Below are positions 2,516-6,991 of a DNA stretch of 38,550 nucleotides, in pieces (the stretch's first letter is position 1; every line of letters starts with the position of its first letter). Source of the DNA: Nitrospira sp. (lineage in GTDB: Bacteria > Nitrospirota > Nitrospiria > Nitrospirales > UBA8639); NCBI GenBank assembly GCA_020430245.1, contig JAGQKG010000007.1, forward strand, positions 1 to 38,550, in the 5' to 3' direction. The translations under genes and the position numbers were made by a program. Under the pieces are notes generated by a model. The model saw only the letters and a program-made list of their open reading frames with translations. It was not told the DNA's origin and made no database searches.

Positions 2516-5050
2516 ATGATATACTCGGCTTCCATGAATAACTCTATCGTGATTAGGGGCGCTCGCCAACATAATCTCAAGAATCTCGACTTGGAGATTC
2601 CTCGGGATCAGTTGGTGGTAATTACGGGTTTAAGTGGATCAGGTAAGTCATCTTTGGCTTTTGACACGATTTACGCCGAAGGCCAGCGTCGATATGTCGA
2701 ATCACTCTCCGCCTATGCCAGGCAATTCCTTGACCAAATGACGAAACCGGATGTGGATTCCATTGAAGGGCTTTCGCCTGCGATTTCCATCGAACAAAAG
2801 ACGACGAGTCACAACCCTCGGTCCACGGTGGGAACGGTCACGGAGATCTACGATTATTTTCGTCTATTATTTGCCAGAATCGGACAACCCTTTTGCCATC
2901 TTTGTGGGAATGCCATTGCGGCGCAAACGGTACAACAAATGGTGGATGCCATAATCGGGTTGCCTCTTGGCACTAAAATCCAAATATTGGCCCCCATTGT
3001 GCGAGGACGTAAAGGCGAATATCGCAAAGAATTATTGGCAGCTCGCAAAGCTGGATTTGTTCGGGCTCGTATTGATGGAGGCATTCGGGATCTCGGGGAG
3101 TCTATTCATTTACATAAACAACACAAACATACCATTGAGATTGTGATTGATCGACTCATCGTCAAGCCAGAGGCCGGGGTGATTCGGCGTTTGGCAGATT
3201 CGGTAGAAACGGCCCTCAAGATGGCACAGGGTCTCGTGGGGGTCATGACAGAGGATGCTCAAGTTCGAGTCTATAGTGAACACATGGCGTGTATTCAGTG
3301 TGGTGTCAGCTATTCAGAAATTTCCCCAAGAATTTTTTCATTTAACAGCCCCCATGGGGCATGTGAAGGATGTGATGGCATTGGGTATAAAGCTTCCAGT
3401 CATTTGGAATGGGAGGAATGGACCTTCGATACTCCCTGTCCGATGTGTAGCGGAGGCCGACTGAAGAAGCAAAGCCTTGCCATAAATATCGGAGGGAAGT
3501 CTATTGCTGAAGTGACCCACCTGTCTGTGCGGAATATCCTGGAATTTATGGATGCCTTAATTCTCACCGATCGTGAACAGATGATTGGACAGCGAGTGCT
3601 GAAAGAGATTCGGGAGCGGTTGGAGTTTTTACTCAACGTCGGATTGGGCTATCTCACCCTGGATCGTCCTGCTGCTACTTTGTCGGGAGGAGAAGGACAA
3701 CGGATTCGATTAGCCACGCAAATCGGATCGGGATTGGTAGGCGTGCTGTATATCCTGGATGAACCCAGTATCGGGTTGCATCAGCGGGATCACCGACGGT
3801 TACTCCAAACGTTATTACGATTGCGGGATATGGGGAATACCGTCGTGGTGGTTGAGCACGATGCCGAGACCATGCACGCTGCCGACTATATTTTGGATTT
3901 AGGGCCGGGAGCTGGCGTGGAAGGTGGACAATTAGTTGCCCACGGTCCTCCCTCGGTGGTGATGGCTCATCCAAGTTCGCTGACTGGCCAATATTTAAAA
4001 GGGAGTCGCCGAGTGTCCTTGACTCAACGTGCCAGGCAACCCAAAGGATTTTTGACCGTCGTGGGTGCGGAAAAGCACAATCTTCAGCACGTGACCGTAA
4101 ACTTTCCCTTGGGCCTGTTGACCTGTGTCACCGGTGTGTCAGGTTCAGGGAAAAGCACTTTGGTTGTAGATGTGTTGTTCCGATCCCTTGGGCAAGGTTT
4201 TTCCCAGAAGAAGCCGGTGTTTGAGGGATGTCGGGACATACGTGGACTTGACCAACTGGATAAACTTATTGATATTGATCAGTCTCCAATTGGGCGGACT
4301 CCTCGTTCGAATCCCGCCACCTATACCGGCCTCTTTAGTTTCGTTCGTGATCTGTTCGCGCAATTACCGGAATCTCGAGTGCGAGGCTACAAGCCTGGCC
4401 GCTACAGTTTCAATGTCAAAGGTGGGCGATGCGAGGCGTGTCAGGGTGATGGCCTCATAAAAATTGAAATGCATTTTCTCCCGGATATTTATGTGACCTG
4501 TGAGTCCTGCAATGGTCAACGGTACAATCGCGAAACCTTGGATGTGACCTACAGGGGGCGAACAATTGCGGAGGTCTTAAATATGACAGTGGCTGAGGCC
4601 CTGGAGTTTTTCGTGAACATTCCGCCACTTCGGACACGACTGCAAACCTTATCAGATGTAGGTCTGCATTACATTAAACTCGGGCAATCGGCGACAACTT
4701 TGTCCGGTGGAGAAGCCCAGCGGGTCAAGCTTTCCAAAGAACTCTCGAAACGTCCCACTGGTCGTACGCTCTATATTCTCGACGAACCGACAACAGGGCT
4801 ACATTTTGTGGATATTCAACGGTTGTTGGATGTGCTCGATCGGTTAGTCGAGACCGGGAATACGGTCCTCGTCATTGAGCATAATGTGGATGTGATTCAG
4901 AACGCGGATTGGGTCATTGATTTGGGGCCGGAAGGTGGAGATCAAGGAGGATGTGTGGTGGCGGAGGGCACCCCGCAATCCGTGATGAAGGTCACGGCAT
5001 CGTGGACAGGGCAAGTGTTACGAGAAGATTCTAAAAGCCGAGCCTTCTGA
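2516..5050 (+). CDS. uvrA: UvrABC excinuclease subunit A, lacking the insertion domain
   Basis: UvrA is the ABC-type damage sensor of nucleotide excision repair; it loads UvrB on DNA. I start at ATG 2516, which has AAGGGGA five bases upstream; an ATG at 2534 ([15 protein letters not shown]) is the alternative and is closer to the family N-terminus. Walker A motifs are GLSGSGKS (about residue 38) and GVSGSGKST. Signature motifs LSGGEGQR and LSGGEAQR and both D-loops ([18 protein letters not shown]) are intact. The UvrB-binding domain is present (VQQMVDAI...[13 protein letters not shown]). Zinc module 1 is C259/C262/C283/C286, and module 2 is CEAC-x19-CESC. The protein has 844 residues against about 940 usually. 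The whole deficit lies between C286 and the CPMC motif at 308-311, where about 120 residues are normal, so the insertion domain is absent. The reading frame is uninterrupted there. Confidence 0.96.
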
Positions 5051-5067
5051 GAAAGCCTAGGCTTTCT
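5050..5067. terminator. Palindrome between convergent uvrA and a 59-codon gene, probable bidirectional terminator
   Basis: AGAAAGCC-TAG-GCTTTCT-type 18-bp perfect palindrome (5050-5067). It begins on the last base of the uvrA stop codon and contains the stop codon of the opposite gene (5057-5059). A T-rich tail (TTCTTCTT) follows on the plus strand. The stem can form in RNA from either strand with a four-base loop. The short stem makes it a modest terminator. Confidence 0.5.
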
Positions 5068-5236
5068 TCTTGTAAATATTCAGTCCGATTTTCTCTTCCC
5101 GATCAGGTATTGAGACATTGCCTTCGGTTGAGGCAATGATCGTTGTTTTGCCTGATGAAGAAGGACCAAAATCCTTCGACAGGTCTACCGTAATTGTTAG
5201 CATGGTTCCATTGACCGTCAATTCCACATTTTTCAT
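5057..5236 (-). CDS. Conserved-looking 59-residue protein
   Basis: A short frame starting at ATG 5236-5234 with GAGAGGAA nine bases upstream. The product begins MKNVELTVNGTMLTITVDLS, continues with KDFGPSSSGKTTIIASTEGN and ends in a basic tail (YKKKA). The pattern of alternating hydrophobic residues suggests a small beta-sandwich or beta-hairpin protein. The SGKTT stretch resembles a P-loop by chance but the protein is far too small for an NTPase. I have the impression that similar small proteins (FGPS-SGKTTIIASTEGN) occur in other nitrifiers and methane oxidisers, but I cannot search. It converges on uvrA with six bases between stop codons and is probably the last gene of the 5926-5057 minus-strand group. 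Confidence 0.75.
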   Translation of the reverse strand: MKNVELTVNGTMLTITVDLSKDFGPSSSGKTTIIASTEGNVSIPDREEKIGLNIYKKKA

Positions 5237-5300
5237 GGTTGGTTCCTCTCTCAGAAGTGTAAATCAATACAGGTTCCAGGGTACTGGCAGAAGGGCTGCC

Positions 5301-5609
5301 CTATTCTGACAGGTCCGCGAGGACCAAGAGTGCTCCTGCTCCGAGTATATACGGAAGAACACAGGTATAGAACACCGATTCAATGGAAGAATATTTCCAT
5401 GTGGAAGTAGGACGTGACAACTGGTTCTTGTAAATGAATTCATAGGAAAAAATGAGCATGCCAATGGTTAGGACGATTACCCGGCTGGTTCGAGGCCAGG
5501 TATAGAGACCAACAATGAGGTAGCTGGCAGTATGAAAACCGCTAAATGCACAAAGGACAGGGGCAAGAAAAAAATGGAGAAATGATGCTGAGAGTCGAAG
5601 AGAACCCAT
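5301..5609 (-). CDS. Small membrane protein of unknown function
   Basis: A 102-residue frame with three to four hydrophobic segments: about residues 7-30 (SASFLHFFLAPVLCAFSGFHTA), 42-58 (SRVIVLTIGMLIFSYEF) and 80-98 (FYTCVLPYILGAGALLVLA). It is presumably an inner-membrane protein. No family is recognised, and I see no convincing ribosome binding site before the ATG at 5609, which lowers confidence. It lies 32 bp after the zinc-finger gene and 64 bp before the 59-residue gene, all on the minus strand, which fits a three-gene unit. Confidence 0.6.
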   Translation of the reverse strand: MGSLRLSASFLHFFLAPVLCAFSGFHTASYLIVGLYTWPRTSRVIVLTIGMLIFSYEFIYKNQLSRPTSTWKYSSIESVFYTCVLPYILGAGALLVLADLSE

Positions 5610-5641
5610 AGCATGCGAGGTTTAAAGCCCTGGATATTCCA

Positions 5642-5926
5642 TTATTTGACTTCGGCAGGCACCGAAGGCGTGGACATGGCAGGTTGGGGCAAGGTCTGCT
5701 GGTCTGCACACCTTTTGCATACACGCGGGCGTCTTTTCAGATAGGAGATCTTCCCGCTAGCCAGACAACTATAATGAACAAAATGTTCACAGATGCTGCA
5801 ACGAGACCACCCTCCACGGAGCATGGTAAGATTTCGGTACAGACCTTCGTGGCACACCCCACACATTTCGGGTTCGATACCCAATAACAGGGGTTCCCAA
5901 TCTCCGGCTTGATTTCGAATGCTCAT
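5642..5926 (-). CDS. Small protein with a PHD/RING-type cross-brace zinc finger
   Basis: The 94-residue product has the metal-ligand order C22-x2-C25-x17-C43-x2-C46-x4-H51-x2-C54-x15-C70-x2-C73. This is the C4-H-C3 spacing of PHD fingers (consensus roughly C-x2-C-x8-25-C-x2-4-C-x4-5-H-x2-C-x12-46-C-x2-C), a fold common in eukaryotes and rare in bacteria. The aromatic residue that PHD fingers carry two positions before the seventh ligand is missing (RRPRVCKRC). A binuclear RING/FYVE-like treble clef or two separate zinc ribbons are alternatives. The tail is Pro/Ser-rich and low in structure. There is no ribosome binding site; a good promoter ends only a few bases before the ATG, which suggests a leaderless mRNA. 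Cellular role unknown; cytoplasmic. Confidence 0.7.
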   Translation of the reverse strand: MSIRNQAGDWEPLLLGIEPEMCGVCHEGLYRNLTMLRGGWSRCSICEHFVHYSCLASGKISYLKRRPRVCKRCADQQTLPQPAMSTPSVPAEVK

Positions 5927-5935
5927 AAGAAGAAA

Positions 5936-5964
5936 AGTATACTGAGTAGCTCAGATGAAAACAA
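5936..5964 (-). promoter_or_regulatory. Sigma-70 promoter for the zinc-finger gene, leaderless layout
   Basis: On the minus strand TTGTTT (5964-5959), a 17-base spacer and TATACT (5941-5936). Transcription would start about seven bases further on, only a few bases before the ATG at 5926. This explains why that gene has no Shine-Dalgarno. Confidence 0.6.
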
Positions 5965-6100
5965 TAAAGAAATCTTTGAGGAACCGTTTACTGAACTAAT
6001 ATCCCTGTCCTTAAAGCTCGCAATTTGACACTCCAAAAATCCATTTGATAGGGTCACCAACGATTTCATCCATCCTTCCACGGCGTATATTCGCTCCTTT

Positions 6101-6991
6101 GTGAACATTCAAACCTATTTAGACCAACAGCGCCAACGGGTTGACCGGTTTTTGGAGCAAATTGTTCCTCAGGCCTCGGCTCAACCTCAACGACTGTACG
6201 AGTCCATGCGGTATAGTCTCTTGGGTGGAGGGAAGCGCATTCGTCCGATTTTGACCATTGCGGCCGCCCAAGCCCTGGGGTATGAGGATGATGCCATGTT
6301 GCCGTTTGCCGCTTCGTTGGAGTTCGTTCACACGTATTCCCTCATTCATGATGACCTTCCTGCGATGGATAACGATGACTATCGGCGAGGCCGGTTAACT
6401 AATCATAAGGTATTTGGAGATGGTATGGCGATTTTGGCAGGTGATGGATTGTTGACCATGGCGTTTGAGTTATGCAGCCGGAGTGATGGAGCAGGTGAGT
6501 TTTCAGCTGCTCAACAATTAGACATTGTGCGGGAATTGTCCCATGGTTCTGGTCACCAGGGAATGGTGGGCGGACAGGTGATGGATATCCAGGCCGAAAA
6601 TCAGGGGATTGATTTGGATCATCTCCAGAAAATACACAGTTTTAAAACGGGACGTCTGATTCGTGCCGCCGTCCGGATTGGCAGCATTATCGGCAAGGCC
6701 ACTCCTCAACAAACACAATGCCTAACCGACTATGCGGAAGATATTGGCCTGGCTTTTCAGATAGCGGATGATGTTTTGGACATGGTGGGGACACGGGATG
6801 AATTGGGAAAGGACGCAGGGACGGATGAAAGAAGAGGGAAGCAGACCTACCCTTCGTTTTTTGGGATTGAAGGGGCCAGGAAACTGGGAGAGGAATGTGT
6901 CCAACGTGCGATAGCCCGATTGAATACCTTTGATAAACAGGCCGACCCCTTACGACACATTGCCACTTATATAATGGCGCGACGGTCTTGA
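6101..6991 (+). CDS. ispA: Polyprenyl (farnesyl/geranylgeranyl) diphosphate synthase
   Basis: This enzyme condenses isopentenyl diphosphate with allylic diphosphates, giving C15-C20 precursors for quinones, hopanoids and carotenoids. The 296-residue product has the family length and the GGGKRIRP motif (42-49), the first aspartate-rich motif DDLPAMDNDD (84-93), GQVMDI (158-163), KTG (182-184) and the second aspartate-rich motif DDVLD (223-227). Start is GTG 6101; no clear Shine-Dalgarno is present but the N-terminal alignment fits. The residues before the first motif (HTYSLIHDD) resemble farnesyl diphosphate synthase, but chain length cannot be decided by eye. It precedes hpnA and a carotenoid gene relic, consistent with an isoprenoid neighbourhood. 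Confidence 0.93.
   Translation: MNIQTYLDQQRQRVDRFLEQIVPQASAQPQRLYESMRYSLLGGGKRIRPILTIAAAQALGYEDDAMLPFAASLEFVHTYSLIHDDLPAMDNDDYRRGRLTNHKVFGDGMAILAGDGLLTMAFELCSRSDGAGEFSAAQQLDIVRELSHGSGHQGMVGGQVMDIQAENQGIDLDHLQKIHSFKTGRLIRAAVRIGSIIGKATPQQTQCLTDYAEDIGLAFQIADDVLDMVGTRDELGKDAGTDERRGKQTYPSFFGIEGARKLGEECVQRAIARLNTFDKQADPLRHIATYIMARRS

Follow-up and report, generated by a model that had tools for sequence, protein, structure and literature searches.

An undescribed family of putative FYVE/PHD-type zinc fingers across the bacterial order Nitrospirales, usually encoded beside a predicted membrane protein

Does a small bacterial frame with the ligand spacing of a PHD finger encode a true zinc finger, and if it does, to which family does it belong, how did it reach its host and what might it do there? 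The question is raised by a 94-residue protein encoded in the window, by which we mean the whole stretch of DNA analysed here (38,550 nucleotides of contig JAGQKG010000007.1, Nitrospira sp. assembly GCA_020430245.1). Discussions of binuclear cross-brace fingers usually treat them as eukaryotic, and the first-pass annotation accordingly described the protein as an unusual stand-alone bacterial version, possibly an ancestral treble-clef adaptor or a horizontally acquired element. We found instead a gene that is nearly fixed and vertically inherited in a bacterial order, and that is usually followed by a second gene. The features of the locus are collected in Table 1.

Table 1. Features of the zinc-finger locus, in positions of the window
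Feature	Position	Strand	Description
Partner gene	5301..5609	-	102 aa; predicted small membrane protein with three or four helices; second gene of the presumed operon
Coupled-ATG region	5610..5642	-	ATG 5642-5640 overlaps the finger stop codon; in-frame TAA 5624-5622
Zinc-finger gene	5642..5926	-	94 aa, ATG start; finger at residues 22-73, then a variable tail
Eight ligand positions (C22 C25 C43 C46 H51 C54 C70 C73)	5708..5863	-	codons 22-73, with invariant GGWxRC and KxRPRxC
-10 box TATACT	5936..5941	-	9 nt ahead of the finger ATG
-35 element TTGTTT	5959..5964	-	17-nt spacer to the -10 box
Polyprenyl synthetase	6101..6991	+	divergent neighbour, with homologues close to the finger in 28 of 39 loci, not all of them complete

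The exact C4HC3 spacing claimed at first was borne out. Residues 22-73 read C-x2-C-x17-C-x2-C-x4-H-x2-C-x15-C-x2-C, with His51 as the fifth ligand; the protein has cysteines at positions 22, 25, 43, 46, 54, 70 and 73, and histidines at 26, 48 and 51. None of 300,000 shuffles of the protein's own residues matched the broad PHD pattern, and this frame alone matched it among the window's 265 open frames with 60 or more residues, so the ligand pattern is not due to chance. When the gene was compared with 14 relatives, NG86 dN/dS was 0.046-0.128 in eight and 0.076 in a ninth (dS 1.54), while dS was saturated or unusable in the remaining five. Values of 0.05-0.13 wherever dS could be used, along with the retention of the ligands among homologues described below, establish that the frame is a real gene under purifying selection. 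The N-terminus, MSIR..GxWEPLLLGI, is retained in most f1 and f3 copies and differs in f2 and f4. We also noted a 67-aa antisense frame over the finger (5684-5887, plus strand), which recurs in 30 of 39 loci, most likely because the coding strand opposite it is conserved.

A search of 102 loci, 101 of them with a finger homologue, yielded 69 distinct sequences. The ligand pattern is kept in 68 of these, with loops of (17,15) in 62 and (17,13) in six, and the fifth ligand is His in 67 and Cys in one. Loss of the His or of the last Cys pair among homologues had been named as a possible objection to the original reading; apart from the single Cys for His, both are kept. The sole sequence that misses the pattern, L075 from the draft genome G015, is frameshifted, with two matches in different frames, and may reflect either a sequencing error or a real loss. 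The finger of L046 (genome G022) has Cys for His at ligand five (FVCYAC), which makes it an all-Cys finger. In an alignment of 26 homologue rows, 25 of which are 45-76% identical to the window protein, seven Cys are invariant throughout, and ligand five is His in 25 rows and Cys in one. The non-ligand residues L15, V24, R31, T34, G38, G39, W40, R42, V50, L55, K64, R66, P67 and R68 are also invariant, and the constancy of W40, R42, K64, R66, P67 and R68 exceeds what zinc binding needs. The tail beyond residue 73 varies among homologues.

To which family the finger belongs was less easily settled. Searches against Pfam returned a VAL1-type finger, STL11, PHD, C1, RING and others, all under the cut-off, and no match was found in NCBIfam or PHROGs. 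PHD (PF00628) scored 14.7 bits where the gathering cut-off is 24, and RING 10 bits (PF13639, cut-off 27.3) and 10.3 bits (PF13923, cut-off 27). By E value, and not by gathering cut-off, the C1_1 profile is matched by 25 of the 26 aligned members (best 2.5e-5) and the PHD profile by 24 of 26 at E<=1 (best 0.0013). Where PHD fingers usually carry an aromatic, two positions ahead of ligand seven, this finger has an arginine, R68, in 26 of 26 rows. Given this substitution and the low PHD score, PHD finger is not supported as a name for the family.

Structure prediction tentatively pointed to the wider group. An AlphaFold model, built from ten alignment rows and without zinc atoms, had a mean pLDDT of 63, rising to about 84 in residues 41-50. 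The top rows of a Foldseek search with this model were PHD, FYVE and FYVE-related fingers, with a best E value of 0.017 and none at or below 0.001. In VIA-align, FYVE and FYVE-related domains took ranks 1-7 (Z 6.5 to 4.7), followed by PHD at 4.6, although Z values below 8 may, by the tool's own caution, reflect a common arrangement only. With modest confidence, therefore, this modest model, which lacks zinc atoms, would fall among FYVE/PHD fingers and away from zinc ribbons. Two independent zinc ribbons are not favoured, since the DZR profile is weak (12 of 26 members, best E 0.0053) and FYVE and PHD head the fold lists. The eight ligands fall in four pairs and are conserved across homologues, as in a binuclear treble clef, and we would class the finger with the binuclear treble clefs of the FYVE/PHD type, as an undescribed family within them rather than as a PHD finger proper. 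Neither Pfam nor NCBIfam nor PHROGs has an entry for the family, while the type of fold is already known.

The distribution of the gene bears on its origin. We sampled 295 genomes of the phylum, 98 from the window's order (Nitrospirales) and 197 others, and detected the finger in 96 of the former and none of the latter, which include 15 genomes from other orders of the same class. Among relatives it was present in 55 of 59, including 40 of 40 good-quality genomes, and the four without a match were G001, G034, G045 and G047. Nearly all genomes listed have one match each. No match was found in plasmids, phages or viral contigs. A genome-contig scan with the single window sequence, which reaches close relatives only and is the one search covering phyla other than the host's, returned nine loci, all titled as Nitrospirales, Nitrospiria, Nitrospiraceae, Nitrospirota or Nitrospirae. 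Because the finger is nearly universal in the order and absent from the 197 other genomes of the phylum, it behaves as an order-wide, vertically inherited core gene without recent import, and is a candidate order-specific marker gene. The proposal of horizontal acquisition is not supported: presence tracks the order and nothing matched among plasmids, phages or viral contigs, with other phyla hardly sampled.

The same genomes allowed us to consider whether the finger serves the Pup-proteasome system as an E3-like protein or substrate adaptor. RING-like cross-brace fingers act in this way in eukaryotes, and homologues of the Pup ligase (PF03136) occur in all 98 sampled genomes of the order. However, PF03136 is also found in 48 of the 197 genomes outside the order (146 of 295 overall), including 15 of 15 from the class's other orders, in which no finger was found, and the RING profiles score far below their cut-offs. 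We consider such a role highly improbable, and a Pup-system link specific to the finger is rejected because PF03136 is not confined to finger-bearing genomes.

The description of a small stand-alone C4HC3 protein holds for the protein itself but overlooked a partner encoded immediately after it on the same strand. The partner is hydrophobic, with conserved YTWPRxSR and YEF[VI]YK motifs, and no Pfam family matched the window copy above cut-off. Its AlphaFold model is mostly helical (helices 3-22, 25-37, 40-64 and 75-101) at low confidence (pLDDT 57), and a membrane protein is predicted from hydropathy and these helices. In the 295-genome sample, the partner profile matches 68 genomes of the order and, outside it, gives one weak match (G086, E 4.6e-4) inside an 804-aa frame. 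In 68 of 68 it lies downstream of the finger on the same contig and strand, with a gap between matches of 43-352 nt (median 72). By locus, the partner is present in 36 of 39, the copies of L053 and L074 being cut by contig ends, and in a larger count in 92 of 97, where it is missing from L030, L043, L044, L045 and L053.

The 28 finger-bearing genomes without a partner match all belong to genus g12, where 38 sampled genomes carry the finger. In the four g12 cases examined (L030 and L043-L045) finger, ligands and promoter are intact, but the frame that follows is shortened or missing; in L043-L045 an overlapping frame reads into a truncated remnant. The partner is therefore usual, not obligatory: since the finger survives in these genomes without it, the membrane protein is not required everywhere and the finger probably has a function of its own. 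Some further small frames were seen nearby. In L030, L043, L044 and L045 one such frame lies downstream of the finger on the same strand with two CxxC pairs, [IT]CSSCKSAHYLTV and RLRCADCRR.YEL, and looks like another zinc-binding protein; an ORF cluster over the region of this frame is found in 9 of 9 f3 loci. In the window, the stretch that separates the membrane gene from uvrA contains a 59-aa frame (5057-5236, minus strand) that has homologues in 17 of 21 f1 loci and no family match in Pfam or NCBIfam.

The junction between the two genes is tight. In nine named-contig loci the partner ATG overlaps the finger stop codon by one base (eight loci) or abuts it (one locus), which suggests translational coupling. 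This coupled ATG is a choice, because in several of these loci the partner could also start at codons that lie within the finger gene, upstream of it. In the window the coupled ATG meets the in-frame stop after six codons, and a conserved second ATG (5609-5607) is therefore the likely start of the partner.

Of 67 distinct sequences upstream of the finger, 62 have TATACT at 6-10 nt from the start codon. The misses include L075, measured from the wrong place owing to its frameshift, where TATACT can be seen by eye 8 nt before the ATG, and L053, with TAGACT 9 nt before an ATG. The f4 copies L052, L054 and L056 have no TATACT box there; two of them have a GAGG word ahead of the ATG and so may carry an ordinary leader. 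Of 59 distinct upstreams, 58 have TTG at a spacing of 17 or 18 nt from the box, compared with a shuffled mean of 5.1 of 59, and the 59th (L083) is cut off. Between box and start, none of the 59 contains a Shine-Dalgarno-like word (GGAG, GAGG or AGGA). Transcription starts about 7 nt after a -10 box. As the expected start falls at or next to the ATG, the finger mRNA should be leaderless. The evidence for this is conservation at the finger locus and not the motif, because TATACT-N6-10-ATG is not enriched genome-wide (47 occurrences versus 81 for a reversed control). A consensus promoter scanner did not list the finger promoter, in which TTGTTT has three bases in common with TTGACA, and no Rfam match to an RNA element was found in 5050-6150.

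Tentatively, and at somewhat less than an even chance, we propose that the finger is a zinc-stabilised small housekeeping adaptor that is usually held at the membrane by its partner. The starting points, all read directly from the sequences, are the ligands, the selection, the distribution, the gene pairing and the position of the promoter; that the protein binds zinc with cross-brace topology, is transcribed in an operon, docks at the membrane and binds a target is inferred. A constant promoter of sigma-70-like type would give rise to a leaderless mRNA. Judging from ligand spacing and the model, two zinc ions would hold the 94-aa protein in a cross-brace of the FYVE/PHD type, and its invariant Trp, Arg and Lys residues (in GGWxRC and KxRPRxC) may provide a surface for binding some target conserved in these bacteria. 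The partner, presumably made from the same mRNA, would in most lineages dock the finger on the cytoplasmic membrane at its inner face, a placement supported by the gene pairing. On the other hand, the two genomes of the order without a finger match (G267 and G298) are 100% and 95% complete, which counts against a housekeeping adaptor, as the 28 finger-bearing genomes of g12 without a partner match count against a membrane protein that always holds it.

The main rival is nucleic-acid binding: the finger would be a regulator, or a protein associated with the ribosome or RNA polymerase, that presents its basic KxRPR strip to RNA or DNA, with the membrane gene as an operon passenger. The invariance of R31, R42, K64, R66 and R68 and the persistence of the finger in the 28 genomes without a partner match are in keeping with this, and order-wide spread, mostly as one match per genome, suits information processing. 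Yet wherever the partner is found it is adjacent, more than a passenger needs, and zinc proteins that bind nucleic acids gave weak, partial matches; we judge this explanation unlikely. The seven invariant Cys and the two-gene unit with a membrane protein could also suggest a zinc- or redox-sensing switch, in which oxidation or zinc loss unfolds the finger and so alters how active the membrane partner is. However, zinc sites of the structural kind are usually stable, the copies read show constant promoter elements, and the finger persists in genomes without a partner match; we consider a switch very unlikely.

The adaptor reading can be set beside known systems. The nearest structural neighbours of the finger, together with FYVE domains (2yw8, 1joc and 1vfy), are the FYVE-related fingers of Rab effectors, namely Slac2-a/melanophilin (2zet), the Rab3A effector (1zbd) and RIM (2cjs). 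The model aligned with 2zet_C over 63 residues (Z 6.5, rmsd 3.4) and with 2yw8 over 55 (Z 5.3, rmsd 3.8). Like these domains, the finger has two zinc sites of the CxxC type; unlike them, with an identity of about 18-28%, it has His at ligand five and is a separate small bacterial protein. This likeness raises the possibility of a FYVE-like sensor that itself binds lipid head groups. The ranking of FYVE domains ahead of PHD and the predicted membrane protein next door would fit, as would the end RPR[VI]C, which we take to resemble the RVC end of FYVE domains. In FYVE domains, however, lipid is bound by an R(R/K)HHCR motif that leads up to and includes the third ligand. That motif is absent here, where the stretch up to the third ligand is GGWxRC in all 26 rows, and the fold scores lie in the range that may show a common arrangement only. 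Phosphoinositides are not known as usual bacterial lipids. We consider a lipid sensor quite improbable.

PHD fingers are also among the closest known systems. The finger shares with PF00628 the C4HC3 order and spacing and HxxCL at ligands five and six, and the PHD finger of BHC80 (2puy) was the first Foldseek match; unlike PHD fingers that read histone tails, it resides in a bacterial host in which no histone tails are expected. RING fingers have C3HC4 in place of C4HC3. In the open-licence literature we found no report of a Nitrospira PHD finger and no related report of bacterial or prokaryotic PHD or FYVE fingers (one match concerned an unrelated oxygen-sensing 'PHD'), and the match for FYVE or treble-clef was fungal only. 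As to finger-to-membrane adaptors of eukaryotes, it is doubtful that we have here a bacterial counterpart, by descent or convergence, which is order-wide, has a dedicated membrane partner and is expressed from a nearly invariant leaderless promoter. A finger with a partner gene and a constant promoter provides a clean, testable case for such folds outside chromatin and ubiquitin biology. The finger resembles other prokaryotic binuclear treble clefs in placing this fold in a bacterium; Burroughs et al. reportedly described these, with a RING finger among them, in 2011. The B-box, according to PMC4506424, is found in prokaryotes and has a part there in membrane-protein functions.
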